Notes: generated by a model from the letters alone, not told the origin. A DNA stretch of 40,866 nt from Chitinophagales bacterium (GCA_015487695.1 WFPF01000011.1:1-40866), one strand, 5' to 3'. Counted from the stretch's first letter, positions 2,620 to 40,535 are shown. Program-made: numbers and translations.

Positions 2620-2622
2620 GAT

Positions 2623-3303: not shown

Positions 3304-3416
3304 AATTCTTCCTTCCGGCTTCAGCAGTTTGCAGTGTGATGCTGTATTCGCAAATTGATTTTTACCTCTTCTCCTGCCAACTAGCTCAACGCAAGCGGCA
3401 GGGTCTTTGGCTAAAA

Positions 3417-3812: not shown

Positions 3813-3886
3813 AGCCGGGTGTTTGGTGTAAAAAGAAAGCTCCGGAGGAAGGAAGCACTGCACCCCGCCTCCGGAACTGCTATTTC

Positions 3887-4399: not shown

Positions 4400-4448
4400 G
4401 ATTTATTTGTTTTAGGGGAATAAATGCTTCTTTTTACTTTTTCTCTTT

Positions 4449-5612: not shown

Positions 5613-5622
5613 ATTCAGGCAT

Positions 5623-8600
5623 TTATTTCGTTAGGTAATTGATCTCAAGTATGCTCTCATTATACTTCCGGAGCGCATTGAGATAGTTCAGTTCTATCGC
5701 CATGGAATGATCGATCAGTTGCACATACTGAAGGAAATCAATCTCCCCCATTTCATATGCTTTAAGGGCATGTTTTACCATTTCCCCGGCAAGAGTCTTT
5801 CCGGTTTCGTCATAGTAATCGAGCATCTTCTGATATTGGCTGGCCTGGCTTTGCAGCCTCTCAAACCTTGTTTTCAGAGCAATGCGATACTCTTCTGATT
5901 CGGCATCGCGAATCATAATTCCCGTTTTTGAGGCTTCTATTCTTGATTTTTGCGAGCCAAACCAAAGCGGAAGGCTCACACCGGCTTCTACCCCGCCATA
6001 GGCTCCGGGCAGACTGCCCGGATTAAATCCTTTAAAAAGCGAGACACGCAAATCGGGAAGCAGGCGCTGCTTTTCATATTGCAGTTTTCTTTGCGACCAC
6101 TCCCTGGCATGTTCACGCATGCGGATACCGGGATGGCTCTCCAGGTCCCCTGCCTTCATGGAGAGCGGGCCGAAGGCTTCGGACGGAACAGAATAAAAAG
6201 TATCCGATTGCAGGTATTGGTTTAATCGCATTTCGGCCATGCGAATGCGTTCAAAGCTCTGGCTCAGTCTGACTTCGCTTTCCTGTTTTTTGCTTTCGGC
6301 TGTTGCCTTTTCGAGGTAATTAAATTCCCCCGCCTCAAAACGTTTGCCGGCTGCAGATGCAAAATCGCTGTAAAGGCTGTCAAGAAATTGCAGCTTCTGC
6401 GACACCTCTTTCCAGTACACCGCCTCATTCCATGCCAGGGCCACATTTCTGATGAGCTCTATCCGGTGGATCTGATATCGGTCTTCCGACAAATCTTCCC
6501 GGCTTTCGTAAATCTTCTTCCTTGCCGAATAAATGGTTGGAAACTCAAAGGATTGGCTCAGGCCCCAGACATTGAGGGGCTGATTCTCGGGGCTCAGGTT
6601 GTTCTGGTCAAAACTGTAGTAAAATTCAGTCTTTCCGGGATCAAATGCACTGCCTTTCAGTTGGCGGCTCTCCGATACTTGCAGTTCCGCTGCTTCCAGT
6701 CCCTTGTTATTTCTCAAAGCGATGGAGATGGCTTCCTCCTGTGTGATCAGCGTCTGTGCCTCTGTACGCAAAGGCAGCAGTACGGCTGTGATAATCATCA
6801 AAAGAGCCAGTGGGTTCTTTATTCTCCTCCTTCTCATTGACTGCCGTTCAAACATGGCATAGAGCACAGGAAGTACAATGAGTGTCAGGGCCGTTGCCGA
6901 AATCAGTCCGCCTATGACTACCGTGGCAAGCGGTCGCTGCACTTCTGCACCTGCCGATGTAGAAATGGCCATGGGAAGGAATCCCAGAGCAGCAGCCGTT
7001 GCTGTAAGCAGGACGGGCCGCAGCCTTTTTCGAGTACCTACCAGGATGCGTTTATGAATGTCTTTTATTCCATTTGCTTTCAATTCTTTGAATTCCTCAA
7101 TCAGAACGATTCCGTTCAATACGGCAATACCAAACAAAGCGATAAACCCGACCCCGGCAGAAATGCTGAACGGCAGTCCCCGCATGTAGAGGAGCAAAAC
7201 ACCTCCCACTGCCGAGAGGGGAATGGCACTGTAAATCATAAGCGCTTCTTTGACAGAGTTGAAAGCAAAATAGAGCAGTACAAAAATGAGCAGGAGTGCA
7301 ATCGGAACGGCCAGCATCAGCCGGGCTCTGGCGGTTCTCAGATTCTCAAACTGCCCGCCATAGCGAACGGTATAACCCGGGGGCAGCTTGACCTTTTTAG
7401 AAATAATGGCCTTCACATCTTTCACTACCGATTCCAAATCCCTGTTGCGTACATTCACGCCTACCACAATGCGTCTTCTTGTATCTTCTCTCGAAATCTT
7501 TGCCGGCCCTTTGGTATAGCGAATGCTTGCAAATTCGCTTAAAGGCAGCGAGCGGCCGTCTTCGAGGGCAATAGAGCCCTTCTCAATATCTTCGATACCG
7601 CTGCGGTGCGCCTCGTCAAAGCGGAGTACCAGGTCGAACTGTTTTTCGCCTTCAAACATGGTTCCGGCAGCCAATCCCGCAAATCCCATGGTGATGACCT
7701 GATTCAGGTCTTCTACGTTAAGGCCGTATTTGGCGATTTTCTGTCGATCATATTTTACCGTCATTTGCGGCAAGCCAGCTACCTTCTCCACGCTGATATC
7801 GGCAGCGCCTTCCACATTGCGAATGGCTTTCCCAATCTCAAGGGCTTTGCTGTAAAGTATATCGAGGTCCTCTCCGAAGATCTTAATCGCCAAGTCCGCC
7901 CTCACACCCGTTATCAGTTCGTTGAACCTCATTTCAATGGGCTGGGTAAACTCAAATTCCACTCCGGGAATTTCAGCCGTCAGGGCTTCCTTGAATCGGT
8001 CGGCCAGCTCATCTTTGCTGTGGACCGTCACCCACTCGCGTCTGGGTTTTAGTTTGATGATTACATCACTTTCTTCCATTGACATCGGGTCGGTGGGTAC
8101 TTCGGCAGCACCAATGCGGCTCACCACCTGTTCCACTTCGGGGAAGCGCAGAAGTATTTTTTCGATGCGTGTGGTCGCTTTTACCGTATTGCTGAGCGAA
8201 GTCCCGGTTTTCAATACGGGTTGTATCACGAAGTCGCCTTCATCCAGGGTAGGTACAAACTCACCTCCCATTCGGGTGAAGAGATAAAAAACGGAGATAA
8301 GCAGAATGAGGGCCAGAGAAAGCACCAGCTCTTTTCTTCTCAGTGCCCAGGCAATGGTCGGCTGATAACGGTCTTCAAGAAAGGAAATCAGACGTTTCGA
8401 GAAGTTTTTACCCTCTTTTTTCGATGGCTTGATAAAAAGCGAAGCCATTACCGGCACGTAGGTAAAGCAAAGCAACATGGCACCCAGCAATGCAAAGGTG
8501 AAGACCAATGCCATGGGGCGGAACATCTTTCCTTCCACACCAACCAGAGAAAGGATGGGAATGAAAACAATGATGATAATGAGCTGACCGAAAACAGCCG

Positions 8601-9954
8601 AGTGCATCATTTTACTGGCCCCGTGGTGCGTAATGCTGTCGATCAGGCCCTGTCGTTCGGCTTTGGAAAGTGAAAGGAGTTTTTGTCGTTCGCTTGTGAT
8701 CTTATAAGCAATGAATTCCACTATGATAACGGCCCCGTCAATGATGATACCGAAATCGATGGCACCAAGGCTCATCAGATTGGCATCCACTCCGAAGATG
8801 TACATCAGAGAGAGCGCAAAGAGCAGGGTCATTGGGATGACGGAAGCCACCACCAGGCCCGATCGCAGATTGCCCAGGAGCAAAACAACTACAAAGATTA
8901 CAATGAGACAACCCAATATCAGGTTCTCGGCTATGGTCGAGGTCGTTTTTTCTATCAGCTCGCTTCGTTCCAGAAAAGCGTTGATGTGTACGCCCGGAGG
9001 CAGAGCCGATTCTATCTCCTGCACCCTTTTCTTTACCGCATCAATCACGGCTTTTGAGTTGGCTCCTTTCAGCATCATTACCTGGCCCAGCACTTTTTCG
9101 CCTTCTCCGTTTCCGGTGATCGCTCCGAAACGTGTCGCATGGCCATATCCCACCTGGGCGAGATCCCTGATATAGACAGGCACTCCCGATCTTCGTGTCA
9201 CTACGATGTTTTCAATATCCTCCAGGCCCGAAAGCAGTCCTTCACCCCGTATAAAATAACTTTGATTTACTTTTTCAATATAGCCACCACCGGCTACACT
9301 GTTGTTTTTTCGCAATGCCTCATAAACCTCTCCAATGGAGATGTGCATGCTGCGCAGCCTTTCGGGGTTTACACCCACTTCATACTGCTTGAGATAGCCG
9401 CCCCAGGTGTTTACTTCCACCACTCCGGGTATTCCCGAAAGCTGACGCTTGATGATCCAATCCTGAATGGTGCGCAGATCCATTAAGGAATATTGATCGC
9501 GGTATGCGGAATCCACCTCAATCACATATTGATAAATCTCCCCGAGTCCGGTACTGATAGGCCCCATGAAAGGCTTTCCGAATCCGGCCGGTATTTTCTC
9601 CTCAGCCGATTTGATCTTTTCGGCAATAAGCTGGCGGGGAAGATAGGTTCCGATGCGGTCGTTGAAAACCACCGTCACCACAGATAATCCGAATTTTGAT
9701 ACGGAACGAATTTCCTTAACGCCCGGCAGGTTAGCCATTTCCAGCTCGACCGGATATGTGAGAAATTTCTCTACGTCTTCGGTGGCAAGATTTCTCGAAG
9801 TGGTGATAATCTGTACCTGATTGTTGGTCACATCGGGCACGGCCCCGATGGGAATCTGGGAAAGGGAATAAAGTCCGAATCCCACAATGAGTGCGGAAAA
9901 CAGGAGGACAATGAGTTTATGATGTATACTGTAACGTATGATTCTGTCTAGCAT
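5623..9954 (-). CDS. czcA: CzcA-type heavy-metal RND pump fused to TolC-like outer-membrane factor
   Basis: A 1443-residue fusion. Residues 1 to about 1037 are a complete HME-family RND transporter with its N-terminal helix (IRYSIHHKLIVLLFSALIV), two periplasmic loops and 12 membrane helices. The helix-4 motif DFGIIIDGAVIIVE (from about D400) matches the DFGx3DGAx2xVE signature described for divalent-cation (Co/Zn/Cd) pumps rather than the Cu/Ag type. Residues 1040-1443 are a TolC/OEP-family outer-membrane factor with long helical stretches. Between them, residues 1040-1067 look like a signal peptide: a basic MRRRRIK, a hydrophobic core and an A-Q cleavage-like site (TEAQ, 1064-1067). The fusion is one uninterrupted frame. 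Signal peptidase may cut it, or Met1040 may serve as an internal start. This fusion type is known in Bacteroidota. Its promoter and operator lie at 9977-10034. Confidence 0.95.
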   Translation of the reverse strand: MLDRIIRYSIHHKLIVLLFSALIVGFGLYSLSQIPIGAVPDVTNNQVQIITTSRNLATEDVEKFLTYPVELEMANLPGVKEIRSVSKFGLSVVTVVFNDRIGTYLPRQLIAEKIKSAEEKIPAGFGKPFMGPISTGLGEIYQYVIEVDSAYRDQYSLMDLRTIQDWIIKRQLSGIPGVVEVNTWGGYLKQYEVGVNPERLRSMHISIGEVYEALRKNNSVAGGGYIEKVNQSYFIRGEGLLSGLEDIENIVVTRRSGVPVYIRDLAQVGYGHATRFGAITGNGEGEKVLGQVMMLKGANSKAVIDAVKKRVQEIESALPPGVHINAFLERSELIEKTTSTIAENLILGCLIVIFVVVLLLGNLRSGLVVASVIPMTLLFALSLMYIFGVDANLMSLGAIDFGIIIDGAVIIVEFIAYKITSERQKLLSLSKAERQGLIDSITHHGASKMMHSAVFGQLIIIIVFIPILSLVGVEGKMFRPMALVFTFALLGAMLLCFTYVPVMASLFIKPSKKEGKNFSKRLISFLEDRYQPTIAWALRRKELVLSLALILLISVFYLFTRMGGEFVPTLDEGDFVIQPVLKTGTSLSNTVKATTRIEKILLRFPEVEQVVSRIGAAEVPTDPMSMEESDVIIKLKPRREWVTVHSKDELADRFKEALTAEIPGVEFEFTQPIEMRFNELITGVRADLAIKIFGEDLDILYSKALEIGKAIRNVEGAADISVEKVAGLPQMTVKYDRQKIAKYGLNVEDLNQVITMGFAGLAAGTMFEGEKQFDLVLRFDEAHRSGIEDIEKGSIALEDGRSLPLSEFASIRYTKGPAKISREDTRRRIVVGVNVRNRDLESVVKDVKAIISKKVKLPPGYTVRYGGQFENLRTARARLMLAVPIALLLIFVLLYFAFNSVKEALMIYSAIPLSAVGGVLLLYMRGLPFSISAGVGFIALFGIAVLNGIVLIEEFKELKANGIKDIHKRILVGTRKRLRPVLLTATAAALGFLPMAISTSAGAEVQRPLATVVIGGLISATALTLIVLPVLYAMFERQSMRRRRIKNPLALLMIITAVLLPLRTEAQTLITQEEAISIALRNNKGLEAAELQVSESRQLKGSAFDPGKTEFYYSFDQNNLSPENQPLNVWGLSQSFEFPTIYSARKKIYESREDLSEDRYQIHRIELIRNVALAWNEAVYWKEVSQKLQFLDSLYSDFASAAGKRFEAGEFNYLEKATAESKKQESEVRLSQSFERIRMAEMRLNQYLQSDTFYSVPSEAFGPLSMKAGDLESHPGIRMREHAREWSQRKLQYEKQRLLPDLRVSLFKGFNPGSLPGAYGGVEAGVSLPLWFGSQKSRIEASKTGIMIRDAESEEYRIALKTRFERLQSQASQYQKMLDYYDETGKTLAGEMVKHALKAYEMGEIDFLQYVQLIDHSMAIELNYLNALRKYNESILEINYLTK

Positions 9955-9976
9955 CTGCGGTCATTCTTTGACACTG

Positions 9977-9984
9977 CAAAGCTA
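9977..9984 (-). promoter_or_regulatory. -7 element of the czcA promoter
   Basis: On the minus strand this reads TAGCTTTG, an exact match to the Bacteroidota -7 consensus TAnnTTTG. It lies 22 nt upstream of the czcA start codon. No TTTG is found at the usual 19-21 nt further upstream. Instead an array of four phased half-sites begins 11 nt away. That layout suits an activator-dependent promoter. A promoter here would let the pump genes be expressed apart from the upstream regulator/kinase genes. Confidence 0.55.
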
Positions 9985-9995
9985 GTGGCACGGCC

Positions 9996-10034
9996 CTTAG
10001 AGCTTTCTCAAGCCCTTCTTAAGATTTGCTTAAA
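9996..10034 (-). promoter_or_regulatory. CTTAAG-type operator: four half-sites with 11-bp phasing
   Basis: Half-sites CTTAGA (9996), CTCAAG (10007), CTTAAG (10018) and CTTAAA (10029) are each followed by a 5-bp spacer, giving an 11-bp period. CTTAAG-N5-CTTAAG direct repeats are a known target form for OmpR-family regulators such as PmrA and QseB. The array overlaps the stop codon of the kinase gene and starts 41 nt upstream of the czcA start. The same two-half-site sequence recurs at 12110-12126 ahead of the cognate regulator gene. Confidence 0.65.
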
Positions 10035-11400
10035 AAACCACGGTAAAGGTGCTGCCCTCACCGGGCACACTTTTGACCTCAATCTTCGCACCGATGGCCT
10101 CGGCAGATTTTTTCACAATGGAGAGCCCGAGTCCGTTTCCGGGAATGTCTTTGTGCTCAAGGGCCTCGGAGCGAAAGAAATGATTGAATACCTGATTCTG
10201 ATCTTCTTCCCTGATTCCGATTCCTTTGTCTTCGATTTCACAGCGTATCTTATCATTCACCTTTGAGATGCGTACCCGCAGTGGCGACTGCTCATACGAG
10301 TATTTGATGGCGTTGCTGATAAGATTGTCAAGAATCAGATGGGCGTGATAGTGAGGTACGGAATACGCACCGTTTTCGTGGATGTCCAAATATATTTTGA
10401 GCTTCTTTTCTGAAATTTCCGCCTTGCGCCTTGAGAGAATATCGTCCATCAGTGTGGCTATGGAAACTTCAGATTCCTTTTGATCTGTCTTTCCGTTATC
10501 GAGGCGTGCCAGAAGCAGCAGCTGCTCAATCGTATCGCTCATTCTGTTGATTTCCGAGAGACTGCATTTGATTTTCTCTTCATATTCTTCGGGGCTTCGT
10601 TTTTTCCTCAGCAAGACTTCGAGCGTACCCCGCAGGGTAGCCAGCGGTGTCCGCAACTCGTGTGAGGCATCTGAGGTAAACTGTTTCTCACGCTCCATGG
10701 CACTTTCGATGCGCTCCAGCAAGGCATTGAATCCGGCCGATAATTCGTATATCTCGTCTTTGTTTCGCGGAAGTTCTACGCGCTCATTGAGGTTATTCTT
10801 TCGTATTCGTTGTATTGTGCGGGTCATTTTCTTGACCGGTATGATGCTTCGTCCGGCCAGAAAACGCGAAATAAAGTACAATCCGATAAGCACAAACAGA
10901 TAGGAAAGAAGCAGGACATTGCGAAGGCGCATAATCACTGATTCTTCCGCCTCAGATGATATGGCTGAAAGGATATACCCGCGGATCTTACCGTTTTCCT
11001 CAATGGGCAACTGCACCTGACGAATGGCTTTTCCATTCAGTCGTGCATCGAAATGCCCTCCGAACTTTTCTTTCTTAAACGGCAGCACATTGTCTTTCAG
11101 GTTGGGTGATTTATCCATCAGGCGGCCCTGGCTGTCGATCAGCTGAATAAAAACCGGATTGACCTGTATCTCCCGGTGTTCCTGCTCTTCCCATTCGGCC
11201 TTGTTGGCAAACATGATGCTGTCCCGCGTCAGTTTGATCTCGGTGCTGTGCTTTTCCGCTTCGAATGACAAATCGTGGTCGAGGTGACGAAAAACCGTTT
11301 CCCTGACCATGAAATAGACAAAGCCGAAAACCAGGGCCATGATAATGGCCGTGGCAATCATGTAGTGAAAAGCAATTCTGTTTTTGAAGCTTAGATTCAT
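10030..11400 (-). CDS. Heavy-metal-type sensor histidine kinase of the czc locus
   Basis: A 456-residue membrane sensor kinase. It has an N-terminal membrane helix (about 10-32), a periplasmic loop of roughly 120 residues, a second membrane helix (about 163-183), HAMP (RRIRKNNLNERVELP region), HisKA with SHELRTPLATLRG (phosphoacceptor His247), and HATPase_c with LISNAIKYS, DKGIGI and GNGLGLSIV. The start overlaps the stop of the preceding regulator gene by 4 bp (ATGA), which implies translational coupling. The pump genes follow at once, so the kinase most likely responds to periplasmic divalent metal. The metal is not identifiable from sequence. The kinase stop codon lies inside the operator array for czcA. 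Confidence 0.95.
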   Translation of the reverse strand: MNLSFKNRIAFHYMIATAIIMALVFGFVYFMVRETVFRHLDHDLSFEAEKHSTEIKLTRDSIMFANKAEWEEQEHREIQVNPVFIQLIDSQGRLMDKSPNLKDNVLPFKKEKFGGHFDARLNGKAIRQVQLPIEENGKIRGYILSAISSEAEESVIMRLRNVLLLSYLFVLIGLYFISRFLAGRSIIPVKKMTRTIQRIRKNNLNERVELPRNKDEIYELSAGFNALLERIESAMEREKQFTSDASHELRTPLATLRGTLEVLLRKKRSPEEYEEKIKCSLSEINRMSDTIEQLLLLARLDNGKTDQKESEVSIATLMDDILSRRKAEISEKKLKIYLDIHENGAYSVPHYHAHLILDNLISNAIKYSYEQSPLRVRISKVNDKIRCEIEDKGIGIREEDQNQVFNHFFRSEALEHKDIPGNGLGLSIVKKSAEAIGAKIEVKSVPGEGSTFTVVF

Positions 11401-12065
11401 ATTTCTCTGGCTATGTAGCCTACCCCTCTTACTGTTTGTATGTAGTTTTCTTTTTCATTCAATCCGAGTTTTTTCCTGAGTGCATTGATATAGACATCTA
11501 TAACTCCGGTGTTGTACTCAAAATGTATGTCCCAGACGCTTTCGATAATGCGTGTTCTGCGGCAAACATTGCCTTTGTTTCTCATTAAAAACTCGAGCAG
11601 TGCAAATTCTTTTTGAGTCAGTTTTATTTCCTTTCCGTTTTTCATCACCTGATGCTTTCGCGTGTTCAGGGTGATAGGCCCGAGCGTAAACTCCGCATGT
11701 TCTCCACTTTTGGGCCTCAACTGCACTTTGACTCTTTCGAGCAACTCTTCAAAATGAAAAGGCTTCTTGATATAATCATTGGCCCCGGCCTGCAAGCCGA
11801 AGATGGTTTCGTCCAGGGTATCTTTTGCCGTCAGGAATATGGCCGGTGTTTCCATGTCTGACTTCCTGAACTGCCGGAGCAATTCAATGCCACTCATCCC
11901 GGGCAGCATCCAGTCGAGCAGAAGCAAATCGTAATCACCGGAAAGCGCCATATCGAGACCTTCCCTGCCGTTGGATGCAATGTCTACGGCATAAGATTCC
12001 TCTTCCAGGCCCTGCTTAAGAAAACCTGAAATACCGATTTCATCCTCCACTATGAGTATCCTCAT
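11397..12065 (-). CDS. OmpR-family response regulator of the czc locus
   Basis: A 222-residue response regulator. The receiver has the acidic pair E7/D8, Asp51 in LLLLDWMLPGMSG, TAKD after the fourth strand and the YIKKPFHF lysine. The winged-helix domain (about 125-222) contains LTQKEFALLEFLMRNKGNV and ends VRGVGYIAREI. It resembles the CusR/CzcR group that controls metal efflux. It is first in a minus-strand run: regulator, kinase, pump-OMF, adaptor and two membrane proteins. A CTTAAG-N5-CTTAAA direct repeat 44 nt upstream of its start matches the array in front of czcA, so autoregulation and pump control through the same site are likely. Confidence 0.95.
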   Translation of the reverse strand: MRILIVEDEIGISGFLKQGLEEESYAVDIASNGREGLDMALSGDYDLLLLDWMLPGMSGIELLRQFRKSDMETPAIFLTAKDTLDETIFGLQAGANDYIKKPFHFEELLERVKVQLRPKSGEHAEFTLGPITLNTRKHQVMKNGKEIKLTQKEFALLEFLMRNKGNVCRRTRIIESVWDIHFEYNTGVIDVYINALRKKLGLNEKENYIQTVRGVGYIAREI

Positions 12066-29115: not shown

Positions 29116-32100
29116 ATGAGTTTCAGGCAAATATCTATTGCATTTGCGCTGTTCCTTTTTCTTGCACCTAAAATCGGAAAAGCTCAGCTGCAGGTCACGG
29201 CCAGTACGGATGCTACGGCATTGGCTCAGGAACTGGTCGGGCCGGGCGTGGTAGTGAGCAATGCAGTGCTAAACTGCGGAGGCAATGCCTCGGGCTTTTT
29301 TGAGAGCATCAACACTCCGCTGGGCATCGATTCGGGTATTTTTCTTGGATCGGGCACCATCTTCGGTGCCGTAGGCCCCAACAATACAGGTGGCTTCTCT
29401 ACTCAAACCGGTTCGCCCGGTGATCCTGACTTAAATGCCCTTATCAGCCCCTACGTCACTTTTGATGCCTGTATTCTTGAATTCGATGTGCAGCCCTTTG
29501 GTGATACTTTGAAATTCGATTATGTATTTGGCTCGGAGGAATATGATGAATATGTATGTTCCCAGTTCAATGACGTCTTTGCTTTTTTCATCTCGGGTCC
29601 TAATCCGCTGGGAGGCACATACAATAAGAAAAATGTGGCCTTGATTCCCAACACCAATCTGGCCGTAACCATTAATTCTGTCAACAATGGTACACCCGGC
29701 AGCAACGGAAGCCCCAGCGGTTGCACCTCTCTTGCCTATGCCAAATACTACCAGTCAAACGCGGGAAGCGCTACCCTTCAGTACGATGGCCAGACCGTGG
29801 TAATGAATGCCCGGCTCGGTGTGATCCCGTGCAATACCTATCATCTGGCACTGAAAGTGGCTGATGCGGAAGACCGGGTTTATGATTCGGGCGTATTTCT
29901 GCGATCGGGATCACTGACAAGCAACAGCACGCAGGTGGATGTGGCAAGCAACAGCAATGCCTACCCTGATTTGGTCGAGGGCTGCCTGCCCGGATATATG
30001 ACCCTCACCCGAAGCAGCACCATCGGACTGCAGTTGGTCAGACTGGCCTATGGCGGGAGTGCCACCCGAGGCATTGACTACAGCAACCTCCCCGACTCCA
30101 TCTATTTTCAGAATGGCTTCAGTACAGTCACTTTCCCCATCACTCCCTATCTCGACACCCTACCCGAATACGTGGAAGACCTGATCATTTACATTATCAA
30201 CCCCTGTACAGGCCAGGCATTGGACTCGGCTACAATCATGATATATGACTCCATTCAGATCGAGTCGAAACCCGATACCACGGTTTGTATGGGCGACACC
30301 ATCTATCTCTGGGCCAAAGATGCCAACAATTATTACTGGGACAACGACCCCGATATCGTGGCGCAGAATTTTGACAGCATCACGGTGGTGCCCAGCCGCA
30401 CGCATACCTTCCGCGTAGAAAGCACCATCGGTGTTTGCAGCGATTTCGACAACATCAAAGTCACGGTGGTTCCCTATCCCTGGGTGGATGCCGGCCCCGA
30501 CAGAGACCTGTGCCTCGGGACGGTATTGCAGTTGCCCCTGAGTGACAGCAGTCTGCAAAATCCAAGCTATAAATGGGCTCCGGACAGTGCCCTTGCCCAA
30601 ACGCTACTTCGAAATCCGTATACCGTACCGCTGAAAACCACACAATATTTTGTGACGGTTACAAACGAGGGGATTTGTTCGGTAAGCGATAGCATGACCA
30701 TTCGTGTTCACAATCTGCCCATGGTCTATGCCGGCCCCGATCAGCGCACCTGCTTTGGCGACAGTGTGACTTTTTCGGCCACTGCCGACCGCGGAGGCAC
30801 CTTTCACTGGGCTCCTTCTACCGGCCTCAGCGATACACTCGGTCCTGATATTCAGGCATCTCCTCCCGTGACAACACAATATACACTGACATTTACGGAT
30901 TCCTTTGGCTGCAGCTCCAATGACCTGGTCCTCTTAAAAGTCGACCCGCTGCCCGATGTAAAAATCAGCGCATCGCAAAGCGGAAATATCTGCCTGGAAG
31001 ACACTATTTTCCTCCAGGCTTCGGGCGCAGCCAGCTATCACTGGGAGCCGGCCGCTCAGATCAACGATCCCAATTCCTTCAGCACTTTCACGGTCCCTGA
31101 TTCGAGCCTGACCATTTACCTTTACGGAACGGATGCCAATCTTTGCCAAAACATGGATTCGCTAGCGGTGAGTGTGCTTCCCATTCCCTACCCTGAGATT
31201 TTGTCTTCGAAAGACAGCATCTGTCTGGGAGAAAGCCTCACCCTGTATGCCAGCGGTCAGGGCAGCTACAGCTGGGAAAGCAGCACCGGGCTTCAGGTCG
31301 CAGGTGCGGACAGTCTCAAAATTCAACCTAACAGCAATGTGACGTACACGCTCACGGTGACACACCCTTCGGGTTGCGTGAAACAGTTTGTCAAGGACAT
31401 TGCCGTTCTTCCTCTTCCATCGATACAAGCCGGTCCCGATACCACTATTTGCGAAAGCTCGCTGGCGTCTTTGCGGGTATCGGGCGGAGTGCAATATGAA
31501 TGGACGCCCTCCAATCAGTTGAGCTGCAGCAATTGTCCGAATCCGCTCTGGCTTGGCGACAGCACACGAATCTTTACCGTCACGGGATACAACGTTTACG
31601 GATGTGCTGCAAGTGATCAGGTCCGTGTGGATGTGATTCCGATACCAAACCTCACCGTATCACCGGATTCGGCTGCCGTGTGCCGCGGAGAATCGCTGCC
31701 TCTTTCGGCTTCGGGCGGAATCAGCTATCAATGGCAACCGGCCGGATGGTTGGACAACCCCGCGATAGCCAACCCCACGGCAACGCCTGACAGCAGCGTC
31801 ATATTTACGGTATACATTCAGGACGCTCAGGGCTGCGAAGCCATGAAAATGATACCGATAAAGGTCAATCCGCTGCCGCTCATTGATGCCGGGCCGGATG
31901 ACAGCCTTTGCTACGGAGAAAGTATCGTGCTGGCAGCTACGGGTGCATTGCAATATACCTGGACCCCGGCCACGGGGCTCAGCGATCCCAATATTGCCAA
32001 TCCGCTGGCCAGTCCGTTGCAATCAATCAACTACACGATACAGGGAAGCGATGCCAACGGATGTGTGAGTTCGGCCGTGAAACATATCGAGGTGCTGCCC

Positions 32101-33753
32101 CTTCCGCTTGCAGAAGCCGGACCGGCTCAAACCCTTTGTGAAAACGAACGGCTGCAACTCAATGCCAGTGGAGGAGTACAATACCACTGGACACCTTCGC
32201 TCGGTTTGTCCTGCAGTTACTGCCGCAGTCCCGAGTTGAAAGCCGTCCAGTCCACCGCTTACAGTGTGGAGGTTAGCGACATTCATGGCTGCCGCAATAC
32301 AGACAGTGTATATATCACTGTCCTTCCGGGGCCCGATGTCGATGCGGGCATGGATCAATTTATCTGTTACTATGACACGGCCGATCTGCAGGCAAGCGGT
32401 GGAAGCAACTACTACTGGTATCCTCCGGAGGGCCTGAGTGATCCCCGAATCGCTAATCCCCGGGCGCATCCGGATACAAGCAGGTTTTATTATGTGGAAT
32501 CGACAGACAGCAACGGCTGCAAAGGAATTGACAGTGTCGCTGTGACATATTTCCCGATTACACAGGTGCTGGCCCGGGGTGATACGGTGATATGCGCGCT
32601 TTCAAGCACCTATATCGAGGCCGGGGGAGTCAGCAGTTACCGCTGGACTCCGGCTTCTCTGCTTGACAATCCTACATCATACCGGCCGCTGGCAAGCCCC
32701 GATTCCACCACCATCTTTACAGTCACCGGAGAAGATAACAACGGCTGTATCAGCCTTGATTCGGTACGCGTGGCCATCAACCCCCTGCCTCAATTATCCT
32801 TGACTCTGAATGATACTACTATCTGCCGGAACACTTCAATTCAGGTGTCAGCCGGCAATGCTTTCCGTTATGAATGGAAACCGCCCATCGGAATCAGCAA
32901 TACACAGATTTCCGATCCTGTATTTTCTCCGAAAGACAGTACCCTATACACCGTCATTGCATACAGCGATCAGGGATGTGCCGACTCCCAGGCTTTGCAG
33001 ATCAATGTCTTTCCTCCCAGCGATCCGGCACCCTATCCGCAAGATGCCGCTATCTGCCCGGGCGATACCCTCCTGCTGACGGCTCAAAACGGAGTGAGCT
33101 ATTACTGGACCGGAGACCCCGGTATCACAGACAACACGAGTGACAGCATTTGGGTATATCCCGAGTATTCCACCATCTATGTGGTCACGATAACGGACAG
33201 CTTTAGCTGCCGCTTCAGCGATACCATTCAGCTCGAAGTATACGAGCATCCCGTGGCCGATGCAGGCGAGGATCAAAGAGTATTTTATGGCGAAAGCTCG
33301 GAGCTCCATGGATTTGGCAACGGAACGCCCCGGTGGAGTCCGCTGCGCTGGTTGTCCGATCCGGAGATTTATAATCCGGAGATTAAGCCCGACAGCAGCA
33401 TTTACTATGTTCTCACGGTGGTCACGGATGACCAGTGTCGTGCGAGTGACACCGTTTATGTGGAAGTCTACTACGAAACACTGCTCTATATGGCCAGTGC
33501 CTTCAGCCCCAATGGCGATGGACGAAACGACTATATCGGCCCGATATGGTACAATGAATTCGAACTCGATAATTTTTCCATTTACAACAGATGGGGCGAT
33601 CTCATGTTTCGCACCAACGACCCGAATGAGAAATGGGACGGCAGATGGCGGGGAATCATGCAACCCGTTGGATCATACGTCTATATTATCGAAGGCCATG
33701 GCAACCGGGGAGAACGCTTTTACAAACAGGGCAATTTCACACTAATCCGGTAA
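29116..33753 (+). CDS. Giant secreted adhesin-like protein: choice-of-anchor L, 14 Ig-like repeats, T9SS type B domain
   Basis: A 1545-residue exported protein. The order is: signal peptide (1-23, ends IGKAQ), then a choice-of-anchor L-like domain (about 25-275; motif FDYVFGSEEYDEYVCSQFND), a Calx-beta-like domain (about 280-376; GIDYSNLPDSIYF), 14 Ig/PKD-like repeats (about 379-1455), and the gliding-motility-associated C-terminal domain from ASAFSPNGDGRNDY to the end. The FSPNGDG start, FSIYNRWGDLMF and WDGRW...GSYVYII are the hallmarks of a T9SS type B sorting domain. Each repeat usually holds two Cys. It should be displayed or released at the cell surface, perhaps for adhesion; no ligand is known. 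A 6-bp inverted repeat (29082-29097) lies upstream. FkbM, TsaE and alanine dehydrogenase follow. Confidence 0.92.
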   Translation: MSFRQISIAFALFLFLAPKIGKAQLQVTASTDATALAQELVGPGVVVSNAVLNCGGNASGFFESINTPLGIDSGIFLGSGTIFGAVGPNNTGGFSTQTGSPGDPDLNALISPYVTFDACILEFDVQPFGDTLKFDYVFGSEEYDEYVCSQFNDVFAFFISGPNPLGGTYNKKNVALIPNTNLAVTINSVNNGTPGSNGSPSGCTSLAYAKYYQSNAGSATLQYDGQTVVMNARLGVIPCNTYHLALKVADAEDRVYDSGVFLRSGSLTSNSTQVDVASNSNAYPDLVEGCLPGYMTLTRSSTIGLQLVRLAYGGSATRGIDYSNLPDSIYFQNGFSTVTFPITPYLDTLPEYVEDLIIYIINPCTGQALDSATIMIYDSIQIESKPDTTVCMGDTIYLWAKDANNYYWDNDPDIVAQNFDSITVVPSRTHTFRVESTIGVCSDFDNIKVTVVPYPWVDAGPDRDLCLGTVLQLPLSDSSLQNPSYKWAPDSALAQTLLRNPYTVPLKTTQYFVTVTNEGICSVSDSMTIRVHNLPMVYAGPDQRTCFGDSVTFSATADRGGTFHWAPSTGLSDTLGPDIQASPPVTTQYTLTFTDSFGCSSNDLVLLKVDPLPDVKISASQSGNICLEDTIFLQASGAASYHWEPAAQINDPNSFSTFTVPDSSLTIYLYGTDANLCQNMDSLAVSVLPIPYPEILSSKDSICLGESLTLYASGQGSYSWESSTGLQVAGADSLKIQPNSNVTYTLTVTHPSGCVKQFVKDIAVLPLPSIQAGPDTTICESSLASLRVSGGVQYEWTPSNQLSCSNCPNPLWLGDSTRIFTVTGYNVYGCAASDQVRVDVIPIPNLTVSPDSAAVCRGESLPLSASGGISYQWQPAGWLDNPAIANPTATPDSSVIFTVYIQDAQGCEAMKMIPIKVNPLPLIDAGPDDSLCYGESIVLAATGALQYTWTPATGLSDPNIANPLASPLQSINYTIQGSDANGCVSSAVKHIEVLPLPLAEAGPAQTLCENERLQLNASGGVQYHWTPSLGLSCSYCRSPELKAVQSTAYSVEVSDIHGCRNTDSVYITVLPGPDVDAGMDQFICYYDTADLQASGGSNYYWYPPEGLSDPRIANPRAHPDTSRFYYVESTDSNGCKGIDSVAVTYFPITQVLARGDTVICALSSTYIEAGGVSSYRWTPASLLDNPTSYRPLASPDSTTIFTVTGEDNNGCISLDSVRVAINPLPQLSLTLNDTTICRNTSIQVSAGNAFRYEWKPPIGISNTQISDPVFSPKDSTLYTVIAYSDQGCADSQALQINVFPPSDPAPYPQDAAICPGDTLLLTAQNGVSYYWTGDPGITDNTSDSIWVYPEYSTIYVVTITDSFSCRFSDTIQLEVYEHPVADAGEDQRVFYGESSELHGFGNGTPRWSPLRWLSDPEIYNPEIKPDSSIYYVLTVVTDDQCRASDTVYVEVYYETLLYMASAFSPNGDGRNDYIGPIWYNEFELDNFSIYNRWGDLMFRTNDPNEKWDGRWRGIMQPVGSYVYIIEGHGNRGERFYKQGNFTLIR
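30250..33480 (+). repeat. 14 tandem Ig-like repeat domains of the adhesin
   Basis: Fourteen units of about 75-80 residues each run from residue 379 to 1455. A consensus unit starts AGPDxxxCxGxxxxLxASGG, then YxWxPxxGLSDPxIANPxAxP, then YTVxxTDxxGCxxxDSVxVxVxPLP. Cys pairs near the start and in the GC would form a disulfide in each; unit 14 lacks the first Cys (RVFYGE). Units 6 and 9 have an extra CxxC (LSCSNC and LSCSYC). The repeats are similar but not identical in DNA. Confidence 0.85.
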
Positions 33754-35147: not shown

Positions 35148-36377
35148 ATGATGGGAGAGCAAAATAAACCGATCATTACCGGAATATCTTCGCAGTTCAC
35201 ACTTAGCCCTGCCGAATCACCGGCCCTGCTCGGAAAGAAAAAATCGAGCATGCACATTGGCATCCCTAAAAGCGAAAAAAGCGGAGAGATGCGCGTACCG
35301 CTTACACCTACGGGAGTTGCAGCCCTTGTTTACAATGGCCACCAGGTAAGCATTGAAAGCAATGCGGGCCTTGGCGCTCGCTTCAGCGATCACGATTATT
35401 CGGAAGCCGGTGCGGTGATTGCCTATGACAAGGAACAGGTTTACGGGGCACAAATTATTCTGAAGATGGAGCCGCCCTTCGATACGGAGCTCAACCTGCT
35501 GAAGCCCGGGCACATACTGATCTCTCCCATTCAGCTTTCAACGCTCAAGCCCGAAATAGTGAAAGATCTGATCAAAAAGAAAGTGATTGCCCTGGCATTT
35601 GAATACATAAAAGACGATTCGGGGAATTTCCCCTTTGTCCGTTCGATGAGCGAAATTGCCGGAGATACGGCCATTCTTATTGCCTCGGAATATCTGAGTC
35701 AGGAGCACGGAGGACAGGGAATTCTACTTGGCGGAATTTCGGGTGTGGCACCGGCCAAAACCGTCATTCTCGGTGCCGGTGTCGTGGGTGAGTTTGCGGC
35801 CCGCACCGCCATGGGACTGGGAGCCGATGTTCGCATATTTGACAACAACATCTACAAGCTCATGCGCCTGCAAAACAACATCGGCAGGCGGGTTTTTACT
35901 TCAATCCTCAATCAGGAGGTTTTATTCAACGAGATCACTACGGCCGATGTGGTGGTGGGAGCCATTCACAGCGACTCCGGGCGTTCGCCCGTCATTGTCA
36001 CCGAAGAAATGGTTTCCAAAATGAAAGCCGGATCGGTCATTGTGGATGTGAGCATCGATCAGGGAGGTGTCTTCGAGACCTCGGAAGTCACCACACACGA
36101 AAAGCCGGTTTATCGCCTGCATGATGTCATTCACTACTGTGTACCCAATATTCCTTCCCGCGTTTCGGGTACGGCCAGCCGGGCCATCAGCAACATCCTT
36201 TCTCCCCTGCTCATGAAAGCCGGTGATCTGGGTGGAATTGATCCGTTGATGCACCTTTCCCCTTTCTTCAGGCATGGGGTGTATGTTTACAAAGGCTGTC
36301 TATGCAATCGCTATATCAGCGAACGTTTCGGACTGAAGTATACGGAGCTTGATCTTCTTTTTACCAGCGGGCTCTAA
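35148..36377 (+). CDS. ald: Alanine dehydrogenase (Bacteroidota-type)
   Basis: A 409-residue NAD-dependent enzyme interconverting L-alanine with pyruvate and ammonia. After a ~35-residue N-terminal extension (unlike the ~370-residue Mycobacterium and Bacillus enzymes), the core starts MHIGIPKSEKSGEMRVPLTPTGV. The nucleotide site is VILGAGVVGEFAARTAMGLGA (about 206-226), and the active-site Asp follows in VDVSIDQGG, within the conserved GSVIVDVSIDQGGVFETSEVTTHEKP. ILKMEPP carries the substrate Lys. Where Mycobacterium Ald has a catalytic His (about residue 96), this protein has Gln in SPIQLST. Related transhydrogenase alpha subunits share the fold, but the C terminus fits Ald. It converges with and overlaps the lipoprotein gene by 4 bp. 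Confidence 0.9.
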   Translation: MMGEQNKPIITGISSQFTLSPAESPALLGKKKSSMHIGIPKSEKSGEMRVPLTPTGVAALVYNGHQVSIESNAGLGARFSDHDYSEAGAVIAYDKEQVYGAQIILKMEPPFDTELNLLKPGHILISPIQLSTLKPEIVKDLIKKKVIALAFEYIKDDSGNFPFVRSMSEIAGDTAILIASEYLSQEHGGQGILLGGISGVAPAKTVILGAGVVGEFAARTAMGLGADVRIFDNNIYKLMRLQNNIGRRVFTSILNQEVLFNEITTADVVVGAIHSDSGRSPVIVTEEMVSKMKAGSVIVDVSIDQGGVFETSEVTTHEKPVYRLHDVIHYCVPNIPSRVSGTASRAISNILSPLLMKAGDLGGIDPLMHLSPFFRHGVYVYKGCLCNRYISERFGLKYTELDLLFTSGL

Positions 36378-36841
36378 TTCCTTTTGATCTCTATAGGCTC
36401 TGAGGTGGCCACGTTGCTCCACAATTGCGCCCTGTCTTTCAAACGAACAGAAAAGGTACCCATTTCACTTGTCAGGCTGCTGTCTGACATGAAGGTATAG
36501 GGCAAAACAATCTTGAGATAACCCTGCACAGCGATGTCCGCATTGAGCGGAGCCACCGGTTTTACATAATAGCCCTGTGTGAGATTCAGCCGGTTGTCGG
36601 TAAGAAAGAGGGAAAATGAGTCGGCTTCCGGAAAACCGATGTCTCCGTTGCCATCCTGATAAAAAATTGTGATCACTATGGAATCCTGCAGGGCAATCAC
36701 CGATTTTGGCGCTATTTTGCTCAGCTCAATCCGGGGCGTATCGCTCAGCGGCCCGTCCGGATTGGCGATGACCTCCTCTTTGCTGCGGGTACAGGACACA
36801 CCCAACATAAGTATAAGAATAGCAATCAAAAAGAGTCTCAT
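36374..36841 (-). CDS. Small lipoprotein, last gene of the exported cassette
   Basis: A 155-residue protein with a lipoprotein signal (MRLFLIAILILMLGVSCTR, Cys17). The mature part is beta-rich and contains ITIFYQDGNGDIGFPEADSF, where DGNGDIG looks like a small Ca2+-binding turn of a type found in surface lipoproteins. It ends IEIKRN. There is no known family. It begins directly next to the stop of the CX4CH lipoprotein gene (no gap), so the two are co-transcribed. It is the final gene of the five-gene set starting at 40535. It converges with the alanine dehydrogenase gene, overlapping it by 4 bp. Confidence 0.8.
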   Translation of the reverse strand: MRLFLIAILILMLGVSCTRSKEEVIANPDGPLSDTPRIELSKIAPKSVIALQDSIVITIFYQDGNGDIGFPEADSFSLFLTDNRLNLTQGYYVKPVAPLNADIAVQGYLKIVLPYTFMSDSSLTSEMGTFSVRLKDRAQLWSNVATSEPIEIKRN

Positions 36842-37798
36842 CTAAATTATTTTGAATGAAAAGTAGAGATAGAGGTAAAGTGCTACTCCATTCTCCGGTA
36901 TTTCGGTTACGAAATTGTGGTCTGCGTCCTGCACATAAAGACGCATGTAATAGGTCTTATTTTTCTGAAACTCCGAGCTGTTGATTTTAATATGCAGGTA
37001 ATACGGTGCCAGGCCAATGTAGGAGGGTGCCATGTGAGGCGTTTTTTCAATGATTAGGTTTTTGCTGATCGCCTGATCGAAATTGAAAGGCTCAAGAGAG
37101 AACTTCACATCGGCCACCCGGAAATCGGAGGGCAGGGTGAGATCGTCATACAGGCCATACCATATGTCCACCACGCTGTTATCGGGGAAAAGCATGGGAT
37201 CGGTAATCTGCCTGCGTGTGGTATCCAGCCGCATGCCATTGATATCATTCAGATAGGCCACCATGCCAAAGGGAGCCGGTTCTGCATTGGGTGCTGCCGG
37301 ATCGTTTCCAAAAATATCTTTGGCACCGTTCAATATCCACTTGTTGATCAGCTCGATCTGCCACTGCGCCAGCGTGTCGTAGAGAGGCATGCGGCCCAGG
37401 ACGGGATCATCGGTCGTAATGCGTTCATGTAGCCAGCTGCCTGCCGTGTCGTAGGGCAGAACACGATATTCAAATTGTCCTTGATTGTATTCTTTTAGCA
37501 CGGGATGATACACGGTGGTACTGTAAGAACTCAAAGGAGTCCGGAAGTCCGGCTCGAAAGCTCCGTCATGGCAGGCCGGTTGTCCGCATTTTGTTTTCAG
37601 CACATAGTTGTGCAAGCCCAGAAATCCATGGGTATCGACCTGTACAATGATGCTGCCATCATTGTTATAACTGATGCTGTCATACGGGTTTTCGGGCAGA
37701 TCGGGAAGATCGGCATTAATGACCTGCTCATTGCACGAGCTTTGAACGGCCAGAAAGGCCAGGCTCAGGAGTAATATCAGGAAGCTTAGTTTCTTCAT
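36842..37798 (-). CDS. Lipoprotein with a CX4CH cytochrome-like motif
   Basis: A 318-residue lipoprotein. The signal (MKKLSFLILLLSLAFLAVQSSC, Cys22) fixes the start; the open frame extends 27 codons upstream but without signal-peptide logic. The mature protein contains KCGQPACHDGAFEPDFRT, a CX4CH motif rather than the common CXXCH of c-type cytochromes. RMPLYDTLAQWQIELINKWILNGAKDIFGN follows; the MP resembles the axial Met and the ILNGA a helix end of class I cytochrome c domains. Heme attachment is therefore possible but not certain. A beta-rich C-terminal half of about 150 residues follows. It starts 13 bp after the DUF1501-like gene. A redox or sensing role in the envelope is inferred. Confidence 0.8.
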   Translation of the reverse strand: MKKLSFLILLLSLAFLAVQSSCNEQVINADLPDLPENPYDSISYNNDGSIIVQVDTHGFLGLHNYVLKTKCGQPACHDGAFEPDFRTPLSSYSTTVYHPVLKEYNQGQFEYRVLPYDTAGSWLHERITTDDPVLGRMPLYDTLAQWQIELINKWILNGAKDIFGNDPAAPNAEPAPFGMVAYLNDINGMRLDTTRRQITDPMLFPDNSVVDIWYGLYDDLTLPSDFRVADVKFSLEPFNFDQAISKNLIIEKTPHMAPSYIGLAPYYLHIKINSSEFQKNKTYYMRLYVQDADHNFVTEIPENGVALYLYLYFSFKII

Positions 37799-37811
37799 TT
37801 TCACTTTCGGT

Positions 37812-39152
37812 TTAGGCCAGGGCTTCATGCAATACCCTGCCGGGCAACATGCCCGAAGGTATCTGGTCACGGAATCCAAGCAGTTCGGCTATGGTAGGTA
37901 TAATATCAATGGACTCTCCTACCGGCACATTTCCCGTGCCGATCACCTGCTTTTGATTGATGACACCCGGAGGGCCGGCAATCAGACTGAATATTTGCCG
38001 GGAATTGGCATCACTGGTATGGTCATAAGCCCGCAGGCCGTTGTTGTCATTTACATTGTTCGGATCTGAATTTCTTCCATGTTCCGGCATCAATATCATC
38101 ACTGTATCGTCTTTCAGCCCGAGCGCAGCGCCTTCGGGTCCTTGTATCTTGTTCCAGAGCCATCCAACCCCGTGGTCGGCCCTGTGAAGAAAATTTATGT
38201 ACTGGCTGAAGTTGCTGTGGCAGACATCCAGGTTGAAAGTGTTGATCACCATCAGTTCGGGCTGAAAGGCTTCCATTACTTTCCAGGCGGCACCAATATT
38301 GATCAGGTCACCGGTAAGGCCTTGCGTACCTCCTGTGGGAGTTGGCCATTCGATGGGGTTGCTTCCGCTGAGCAGGCCTTTTACAAAGGAGCGGATTCGT
38401 TCGCGGTCTTCATCGTTGTTGGCAATGCCCGACACGGGCCCTGCATGATTTTCGAAATTGTTGTCGAGGAAATTGCGCAACATATTAATTCGTGAGACAT
38501 CATCCGGCTGGTAATCTTTGGCGGTGGAAAGGTATTCCTGTCCGAGGCTGCCGATGGTTGTGGCCGGACGCATATAGTTGGCGCCATAGAGGGCCCCGTA
38601 ATCGGGGTGGCGGCTGTAGTTCAGCGATGGATAGGGTCCGAGGCCCTCACTCATCCACCAGGCATTCAGTGCGCTGCGGGCCGGGTCGCTGTGCTTGCGG
38701 TAATATTCGAAGACCGTAGGATATTCGGGGTTGATGTTGAGATTGAGGCCAGTTTCCGTGTAATTACCGGTCATAGCCACCGTATGTCCGTTGTAGTGCC
38801 CGGTAGGGCCTTGTTTATATCTCATTTCCGGGAATAGGGTTCCCGACTCCTGCAGGGGTTTGTTCAGCACTGTATTCCAGGGCTGATAAACCAGGTTGGC
38901 TCCGGGTTGAGGGCCGCTGAGCATGTTCGGCATCACATTGCCCTCGGTGGCCAGACCCTGGTTGGCAAGGTATTGTTTCTTCACCGATTCCTGGTTTCGG
39001 ATTCCTCCGGCAAAGAGGATGAATACAACGTGATTCACCTTCCGGGCCCCGGTAGCGGCAAAGAGCCTTCCCGAAGGCAGGATGTAGGGCGCTGCCAGCG
39101 TTCCTGCTGTGATCAGCCCCGCATTTTTTATGAATTTTCTTCTGTTCATCAA
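37812..39152 (-). CDS. Tat-exported alkaline-phosphatase-superfamily (DUF1501-like) protein
   Basis: A 446-residue protein. Its N terminus MMNRRKFIKNAGLITAGTLAAPYIL is a twin-arginine signal (RRKFIK), so it is exported folded. The rest has the layout of the alkaline phosphatase/sulfatase superfamily: VNHVVFILFAGGIRNQES at the first strand, HTVAMTGNYT, MVINTFNLDVCHSNFSQYINFLHRADHGVGWLWNKI, DDTVMILMPEHGRN and YDHTSDANSRQIFSLIAG. The first strand has Ala where many relatives have a metal-binding Asp. The C-terminal DIIPTIAELLGF is typical of sulfatase-like proteins. It resembles DUF1501 proteins found with cytochrome/DUF1549 partners. The start overlaps the end of the preceding lipoprotein gene by 4 bp. 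The enzymatic activity is unknown. Confidence 0.88.
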   Translation of the reverse strand: MMNRRKFIKNAGLITAGTLAAPYILPSGRLFAATGARKVNHVVFILFAGGIRNQESVKKQYLANQGLATEGNVMPNMLSGPQPGANLVYQPWNTVLNKPLQESGTLFPEMRYKQGPTGHYNGHTVAMTGNYTETGLNLNINPEYPTVFEYYRKHSDPARSALNAWWMSEGLGPYPSLNYSRHPDYGALYGANYMRPATTIGSLGQEYLSTAKDYQPDDVSRINMLRNFLDNNFENHAGPVSGIANNDEDRERIRSFVKGLLSGSNPIEWPTPTGGTQGLTGDLINIGAAWKVMEAFQPELMVINTFNLDVCHSNFSQYINFLHRADHGVGWLWNKIQGPEGAALGLKDDTVMILMPEHGRNSDPNNVNDNNGLRAYDHTSDANSRQIFSLIAGPPGVINQKQVIGTGNVPVGESIDIIPTIAELLGFRDQIPSGMLPGRVLHEALA

Positions 39153-39667
39153 TAAAAACTGTATTCGTTAGATAATGCAAAGGCCGTATAGAAATGCTCC
39201 GCGGTGAGTCCCGGGTCTTCATTGATGAGCTTCACCAGGTAGTATTTCTCATAGGCAGTCGGATTGCGGAGGTAAAACTTGCGATAGATATCCGTAACAA
39301 ATTTTTCGGGGTCGTTCCGCATTTGCTGGTTGTCCGGTATTTTGATATCGGGGTCGTTGATAAATGCGCTGACCACCATCTGGTTGAGAATGACCTTGTC
39401 GCCAAAGGAAAGCTTCAGTTCAGACAACTCTCCGGTAATGTTTCCGGCAATGGCTTTGCCAAAAAGATCGGCATAGAGAATGGAGATAAACTGTATGTCC
39501 GATTTTTCCCTGTTCTTTTCGAGATTGGAGCTGTATACCGGCAGCGTGTCCAGTTGGTAGATGACCTCATCATAGACTGTTTCTTTGACAATAGTCTTTT
39601 TGCAGGACGTAGCAAAGAGCAGCGGAATCAGCAATAAGAAGAGATATTTAGAAACCTGCATATTCAT
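39149..39667 (-). CDS. Lipoprotein with DUF1549-like helical modules
   Basis: A 172-residue lipoprotein with a signal up to Cys22 (LLFATSC). The mature part is helical and contains QFISILYADLFGKAIAGNI and later FVTDIYRKFYLRNPTAYEKYYL, patterns of the F/Y-x-x-x-L-Y-x-D-L-F/L-G-R-x-P type found in DUF1549/DUF4214-like proteins. It ends AFALSNEYSFY, a short aromatic tail. The start overlaps the end of the 295-residue lipoprotein gene by 20 bp. A second Met two codons further (39661) is an alternative start. It is probably anchored in the outer membrane. Its function is unknown. Confidence 0.82.
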   Translation of the reverse strand: MNMQVSKYLFLLLIPLLFATSCKKTIVKETVYDEVIYQLDTLPVYSSNLEKNREKSDIQFISILYADLFGKAIAGNITGELSELKLSFGDKVILNQMVVSAFINDPDIKIPDNQQMRNDPEKFVTDIYRKFYLRNPTAYEKYYLVKLINEDPGLTAEHFYTAFALSNEYSFY

Positions 39668-40535
39668 CGCTTTTAAGGATACTGATTAAAACCCCGGCAA
39701 AATCGTCATTGGCCAGGAGGAGGAATGCATCTTCAAGCTCTGCAGCCGTGCTGCTTCTCCCCATCAATCCATTGTAATTGAGATCCACCCAATGGTTATA
39801 GAATTCCTGTGAATTGCTTACTATCTGCACGAAGTCCGGTTTGCTGTTGCCCGACTGCAGCAAGAGCTGCCCTCCGAAACCATTGACCATTTCCTCGCCA
39901 TTGCTCAGCTCCGATTCCGTGGGGAAACGACCGAGCATATTTTCGAAGGTGGCTTTCACAAAATTTTCGCTTCCCATATTGATTTGATCAAAGAAATAAT
40001 TCAGGCAAAAGCGGCCGTAAAATTCATTCCGCGTAATTACTCCGTCTTTGAGGTCCTGATCGGCCCTGATCAACTCACCCAGTTTGCCGATTTCATACTC
40101 GAGAATATAGGCCACCAGTGTATCTCCGTTGATCAGCGACTGTTCGCGGATATAGGCAAAATTTAGAATCTGATCGCTGATTTCATTCTTCAAAAGGCCG
40201 TTGAGATACACCGCGGAAGTTTGATTGAAAAGCTGCTTGTAGTACTTGTCACTGGCCAGCAATTCATCAATGATTATCTCTCGGCTCTCGGCTGAGAGGT
40301 CGCTATTCTTAAGCAATGCCACTTTTTGGTCCAGCTCAGCGGCCGTAGGTTCTTCACCGATAAGGTCGATATAAAGTTTGTTGACGTAGTTTTCTACCTG
40401 GAGCGTGGATACACCCGAGTAATCGGGCACCTGATTTCCATCTACCACAATGTTTTTATGGATCTCCTGTGTGATTTCCGTTTTGCAGGAAAGAAAGAGC
40501 ACAGGAATGAGGGCAATCAGGATTACTTGTTTCAT
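39648..40535 (-). CDS. Lipoprotein with repeated DUF1549/DUF4214-like modules
   Basis: A 295-residue lipoprotein and first gene of the cassette. The lipobox VLFLSC ends in Cys17. Three helical modules share a pattern: YVNKLYIDLIGEEPTAAELDQ (about 50-70), FVKATFENMLGRFPTESELS (192-211) and LNYNGLMGRSSTAAELEDAF (242-261). Each is later followed by an E/D-x-Y/F segment such as LLASDKYY, NSQEFYNH or LKSDEYAGF. This L-x-G-R-x-P-T-x-x-E-L theme is shared with DUF1549 (Planctomycetes) and DUF4214 proteins. There is no enzyme motif. The second lipoprotein gene overlaps its end by 20 bp. Nothing resembling an exact -7 consensus lies just upstream on the minus strand. Confidence 0.82.
   Translation of the reverse strand: MKQVILIALIPVLFLSCKTEITQEIHKNIVVDGNQVPDYSGVSTLQVENYVNKLYIDLIGEEPTAAELDQKVALLKNSDLSAESREIIIDELLASDKYYKQLFNQTSAVYLNGLLKNEISDQILNFAYIREQSLINGDTLVAYILEYEIGKLGELIRADQDLKDGVITRNEFYGRFCLNYFFDQINMGSENFVKATFENMLGRFPTESELSNGEEMVNGFGGQLLLQSGNSKPDFVQIVSNSQEFYNHWVDLNYNGLMGRSSTAAELEDAFLLLANDDFAGVLISILKSDEYAGF

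Follow-up and report, generated by a model that had tools for sequence, protein, structure and literature searches.

Do five small, closely packed genes for exported proteins form one functional unit, and are their products related to the DUF1501 systems of Planctomycetes? In Planctomycetes and their relatives, DUF1501 proteins with a Tat signal pair with large proteins that join a cytochrome-like domain to DUF1549/DUF1553, and the pairing of PSCyt1-DUF1549(PSCyt2)-DUF1553(PSD1) proteins with DUF1501 is known from Planctomycetes and Verrucomicrobia. A sequence-only reading of the window (the whole stretch of DNA analysed, the 40,866-base contig C11 of a 2.77-Mb genome that is 98.7% complete) had proposed that the parts of such a system are divided here among separate lipoproteins. 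We examined this proposal gene by gene and across related genomes.

Four lipoproteins and one Tat-exported protein in a compact cassette

Genes A to E are five minus-strand ORFs packed within 40535-36374, each located where the sequence-only reading had placed it. A and B overlap by 20 bp and B and C by 1 bp, C and D are separated by a 13-bp gap, and D and E abut with a gap of 0 bp. Gene A (39648..40535, minus strand) encodes a 295-aa lipoprotein (lipid Cys17), gene B (39149..39667, minus strand) a 172-aa lipoprotein (lipid Cys22), gene D (36842..37798, minus strand) a 318-aa lipoprotein (lipid Cys22), and gene E (36374..36841, minus strand) a 155-aa lipoprotein (lipid Cys17); all four begin with a lipoprotein signal peptide. 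The 445-aa product of gene C (P0003; 37812..39149, minus strand) carries the Tat signal MNRRKFIK and no lipobox. The motifs that had been picked out by reading were likewise present: modules of the L-x-G-R-x-P-T type in A (LIGEEPT, MLGRFPT and LMGRSST) and, in B as the second such lipoprotein, FYLRNPT; CX4CH and a later MP in D (CGQPACH and RMP); and DGNGDIG in E.

The export pattern of four lipoproteins and one Tat protein is conserved. When 84,980 species genomes were scanned, 316 relatives of C emerged; the best 80 of these were taken as loci and, together with the loci of relatives, gave 110 homologous loci. Of the proteins encoded there, 93/99 A, 100/102 B, 92/94 D and 86/87 E (371/382 together) carry a lipobox, as against 0/110 C proteins, 103 of which have an RRxF-type Tat motif. 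The Bacteroidota surface-export motif followed the lipid Cys in 11/93 A, 7/100 B, 12/92 D and 27/86 E proteins, a mild enrichment over a background of 4/96. Median spacing across loci, computed from longest open frames, was -14, 14, 6 and -1 bp. Inverted repeats 5' of A were short or imperfect, an Rfam search matched only a tRNA, and a search for plasmid carriage of the cassette gave no match.

Conservation of the five genes as one unit

That the cassette is a co-inherited unit is well supported. Intact A-B-C-D-E, in this order and on one strand, was present at 81 of the 110 loci, and most of the others end at contig edges. The window genome itself holds a second, divergent cassette in which all five genes recur in identical order (C identity 46%). 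Such a paralogous ordered copy in the same genome, along with the 81 ordered loci, places the arrangement far beyond chance. Among 60 relatives, A, B and full-length C occurred in exactly the same 28 genomes, and strong matches to D and E in those 28 plus two more, G008 and G038; in G008, C is a fragment and D and E lie at a contig end. The co-occurrence across Bacteroidota that the sequence-only reading had offered as a check on itself was borne out, the five genes being conserved together.

Carriers and non-carriers are mixed within six families of these relatives, so the entire block was repeatedly acquired or lost. On contig C31 of G038 (approximately 3664-4618) we noted stop-riddled remnants of D and E, with no A, B or C; G026, of the same genus, has the whole cassette: loss of the block is under way. 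Family f16 has a broken operon, spread over up to four contigs, yet all five genes are kept in 4/4 genomes; in G032, for example, contig 6 holds A and B, contig 25 C, contig 37 D and contig 81 E. That all five were retained despite the broken operon points to a common function over and above linkage. The same three clades appeared in trees of A, C and D and nearly so for E, with B grouped differently at that cut, and pairwise-distance correlations, for which the cassette genes were compared only among themselves, ranged from 0.53 (B-E) to 0.87 (C-D), with A-C at 0.81.

The best 80 of the 316 C relatives bore Bacteroidota names (Chitinophagales, Saprospiraceae, Flavobacteriales, Sphingobacteriales, Cytophagales) or no name, with the exception of L053. 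The label of this locus, Saccharospirillaceae, is proteobacterial and probably mistaken, as the locus has the same cassette flanks as the Flavobacteriales-labelled L054 and L062. A named strain, Phaeocystidibacter luteus LMG 25704 (L119), is among the carriers. A search of the 10-kb flanks for a sixth conserved gene found none that was regular, the commonest family occurring at 11/80 loci and following local synteny; several flanking genes are conserved within local groups of loci, and no conserved neighbour in the flanks hinted at a substrate. At three Saprospiraceae-type loci a gene of about 370 codons lies between C and D (L083 11337-12449, L088 1775-2965 and L092 11337-12437) and resembles, as read from the sequence, a PLP-dependent enzyme of the aminotransferase class V kind.

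Gene C as a probable remote relative of DUF1501

Searched as a single sequence, P0003 gave no useful match in Pfam or NCBIfam, did not reach the Pfam cut-off for DUF1501 (PF07394), and had marginal matches in a PDB sequence search. When 52 C relatives were searched against Pfam, 14 matched Sulfatase (best E 5e-7), 5 DUF1501 (best 0.003) and 4 Phosphodiest (best 3e-5). The predicted structure of C (pLDDT 85, pTM 0.83) matched alkaline-phosphatase-superfamily structures in Foldseek (E 1e-8, probability 1.00, TM about 0.45), and on this model C is predicted to adopt the fold of that superfamily. The earlier description of C as a Tat-exported member of the superfamily is therefore sustained by its relatives, by profile-profile comparison and by the predicted structure, but not by a Pfam match of P0003 itself.

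Comparison of the C profile with DUF1501 in hhalign gave E about 3e-9 to 1e-10 (96-97%). Where both families were scored in the same profile comparison, DUF1501 reached E 8e-9 and the sulfatases E 2e-7 (94%), so that C is not much closer to DUF1501; against the DUF1501 proteins of the fused clusters described below, taken alone, the match was weaker (15-76%). Compared by eye, C and DUF1501 show the following motifs in collinear order: GG-x4-E/D, a His before TG, D-x1-2-H, E-x-GR and DH. The Asp308-x-x-His311 of C (38217..38228, minus strand) is invariant and supplies candidate metal ligands, EHGRN at residues 356-360 (38070..38084, minus strand) is the counterpart of EFGRT in DUF1501, and the invariant Asp376-His377 (38019..38024, minus strand) is the counterpart of the DUF1501 DH pair. 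Profile similarity, these shared motifs and the Tat signal together indicate that C is a remote DUF1501 relative.

In the alkaline phosphatase superfamily the nucleophile usually occupies the position that matches His118 of C (38796..38798, minus strand), an invariant residue at the N-terminal end of a predicted helix, 118-127. No Ser, Thr or Cys was conserved at the nucleophile position in 25 + 52 sequences, the position being placed by the predicted helix. Hydrolysis by C is doubtful because this usual nucleophile is not conserved.

A predicted cytochrome c domain in gene D

All 43 D proteins share C-x4-C-H, a later M-P and W-I-x2-G-A (WIxxGA). In the window, the putative heme attachment motif is CGQPACH (CX4CH) at residues 71-77 (37568..37588, minus strand), whose two Cys and one His are invariant in 43/43; CX4CH is an unusual spacing for a heme motif. 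Met137 (37388..37390, minus strand), also invariant in 43/43, is a candidate second heme ligand. In hhalign the N-terminus of D matched the PSCyt1 region of the fused PSCyt1-DUF1549-DUF1553 proteins (E 1e-11, 97%) and a second PSCyt1 protein (E 2e-8, 95%). Single D sequences reached no cytochrome family in Pfam, and NCBIfam likewise yielded no useful match for D; PSCyt1 itself (PF07635) matched 0/43 D proteins and none in genome G000. The D model (pLDDT 89) places helices around the heme motif, followed by a C-terminal beta-sandwich. A fold search with the whole model returned weak beta-sandwich matches, with no cytochrome among the best 50, and the PDB sequence search with D gave marginal matches. 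From the motifs and the profile matches, D is predicted to begin with a PSCyt1-type cytochrome-c domain and to attach heme.

Genes A, B and E

A matched the Pfam family DUF4214 (PF13946) at 29.4 bits (cut-off 23.2), as did 39/46 A relatives, and its profile matched phycobilisome linkers in the PDB (E 1e-9). Its similarity to DUF1549 was weak and short: against DUF1549/PSCyt2 (PF07583), A scored 20.1 bits, under the cut-off of 29.8, over profile positions 23-72 of 209; 9/46 A proteins matched PSCyt2 at low significance; and in a profile comparison the N-terminal module of A matched the first third of DUF1549 over about 55 residues (E 1e-4, 50-55%). Matches to DUF1553/PSD1 (PF07587) in 6/46 A proteins were not significant (best E 0.0023), and A lacks any CxxCH, including the second DUF1549 heme motif, CxxCHDHK. 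A is thus best described, from these matches, as mainly a protein of the DUF4214/phycobilisome-linker type whose N-terminal module weakly resembles DUF1549. The modules of A match both solved linkers and Pfam DUF4214, but unlike those of phycobilisomes they sit on Bacteroidota lipoproteins without phycobiliproteins.

B resembles DUF4214 at 20.1 bits, below the 23.2 cut-off. For E, which carries the motif DG[ND]GD[IL]G, Pfam and NCBIfam searches gave no useful match and a PDB sequence search was empty. In most of the 60 relatives, E-like lipoproteins with DG[ND]GD, weaker paralogues, also occur outside the cassette, so that E belongs to a wider uncharacterised family.

Relation to fused DUF1501/PSCyt systems

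The fused type of system also occurs, in several copies each, in three genomes of the same order as the window genome (G033, G045 and G057). In these clusters a PSCyt1-DUF1549-DUF1553 protein of 729-1093 residues, in most cases bearing a lipoprotein-like signal, is followed directly by DUF1501, and in several of them a second PSCyt1 protein comes after DUF1501. Profile comparisons gave significant matches on the expected pairs, with C resembling DUF1501, D the PSCyt1 part and A, weakly, the DUF1549 N-terminus; off-diagonal controls were low, except for short signal-peptide matches and A versus sulfatase (35%). Both systems set a Tat protein of the alkaline phosphatase superfamily beside helical and cytochrome partners that are mostly lipoproteins, and the order helical partner, DUF1501-like protein, cytochrome of the fused clusters is paralleled by A/B, C, D. 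The cassette differs in comprising five separate proteins, of which B and E have no counterpart, in an A that lacks the DUF1549 heme motif of the fused proteins, in the CX4CH of D where fused PSCyt1 has CXXCH, and in a C that falls below the DUF1501 cut-off.

Homology of the cassette to the planctomycete-type system is therefore partly supported by these comparisons. Of the proposal that its parts lie in separate lipoproteins, what stands is a remote relationship for C and D and a weak one for A, while B and E fall outside it; the profile searches suggested alongside it bore out C against DUF1501 and D against PSCyt1, and left A with a weak resemblance to DUF1549 and no heme motif. The word "divided" also implies an evolutionary direction, and the order from fused to divided is an assumption that is not supported. 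We found no publication describing the cassette in the literature searched, which was mostly open-access.

Another pair, DUF1800 with DUF1501, is known from Proteobacteria, Bacteroidota and others, and resembles the cassette in joining a DUF1501-type Tat protein to a helical partner gene; unlike the cassette, the pair as listed has no cytochrome gene. We considered A as a DUF1800 relative and rejected this at a profile match of 20%. DUF1800 and DUF1501 occurred in exactly the same 29/60 relatives, a set separate from that of the cassette, and the window genome has neither.

An envelope complex as the favoured reading

We regard it as likely, taken jointly, that the genes are a functional unit and that C and D are correctly identified. 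With somewhat less assurance, we favour a reading in which the five genes are inherited and work together as a unit, most probably an operon encoding one envelope complex and a sister of the fused pair. The products of A to E would then form a physical complex, most likely an envelope-anchored redox/hydrolase complex. The lipoproteins would tether C, in its folded form, to the membrane, with A and B serving as helical scaffolds of the DUF4214/phycobilisome-linker kind. D would move electrons via one heme, bound covalently and ligated by His and Met, and C would bind metal and act on an anionic group (phosphate, sulfate or similar) of a substrate outside the inner membrane. The cassette, with its parts on separate polypeptides, would be a sister to the pair of PSCyt1-DUF1549-DUF1553 protein and DUF1501. 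That the target of redox-coupled action is an anionic polymer, of the envelope or extracellular, is a guess, more doubtful than probable. Unlikely, too, is a bolder version in which an alkaline-phosphatase-fold metalloprotein, with His where the usual nucleophile would be, works with the heme lipoprotein as a redox machine, coupled to electron transfer instead of simple ester hydrolysis, the planctomycete DUF1501/PSCyt proteins acting alike.

Part of the evidence could also be read as independent assembly, in which DUF4214 lipoproteins, an alkaline-phosphatase-superfamily protein and a widespread cytochrome module came together, still as one working unit, and resemble DUF1501/PSCyt through common superfamilies. 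The slight A-DUF1549 similarity, the lack of counterparts for B and E, the sulfatase matches of C and the frequency of PSCyt1-like domains in other proteins of these genomes all fit such an origin. We hold it possible but the weaker account, given that three parts match the corresponding parts of one system in parallel gene order and that C and DUF1501 have in common the His before TG, E-x-GR and DH. An ordinary hydrolase operon, with C a plain periplasmic phosphatase/sulfatase-like enzyme, lipoproteins that bind or anchor, and a CX4CH in D that is structural or holds another metal, would accord with the predicted fold of C, with the Sulfatase and Phosphodiest matches among its relatives, and with the failure of single D sequences to reach a Pfam cytochrome family. 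It is made quite improbable by the full PSCyt1 pattern (Cys/Cys/His, MP, WIxxGA) and 97% profile match of D, and by the missing Ser/Thr/Cys in C.

Least probable is that five unrelated exported proteins stay together merely through a stable operon inherited by descent. All carriers are Bacteroidota, many of them related by descent, and flanking genes too are conserved in local groups, as that would predict; all-or-none occurrence in six mixed families, full retention in f16 after the operon broke and the common clade structure of A, C and D speak against it. The single envelope complex, sister to the fused pair, remains our preferred reading.

DUF1501/PSCyt proteins are numerous in Planctomycetes. 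Rhodopirellula baltica has PSCyt2 and PSD1 41 times each (PMC2754498), and the function of DUF1501/PSCyt proteins has been called unknown (PMC5615132, PMC5122149, PMC4452313, PMC2754498). A compact five-gene version, with one predicted heme domain and one Tat protein, reveals which components are kept together and should lend itself better to deletion, expression and purification than the fused proteins, which run to about 1000 residues, and the P. luteus strain makes the cassette testable.

Other genes in the window

Elsewhere in the window, 1273-12065 (minus strand) looks like a metal-efflux locus: by eye, a 1443-aa protein encoded there resembles a fusion of a CusA/CzcA-type efflux pump with a TolC-like outer-membrane component. 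Its gene has an adaptor-like gene downstream and lies between two histidine kinase/response regulator pairs. At 29116-33753 (plus strand), a 1545-aa protein contains numerous repeats, each about 85 residues long, and its C-terminus, again by eye, resembles a gliding-motility/type IX secretion sorting domain.
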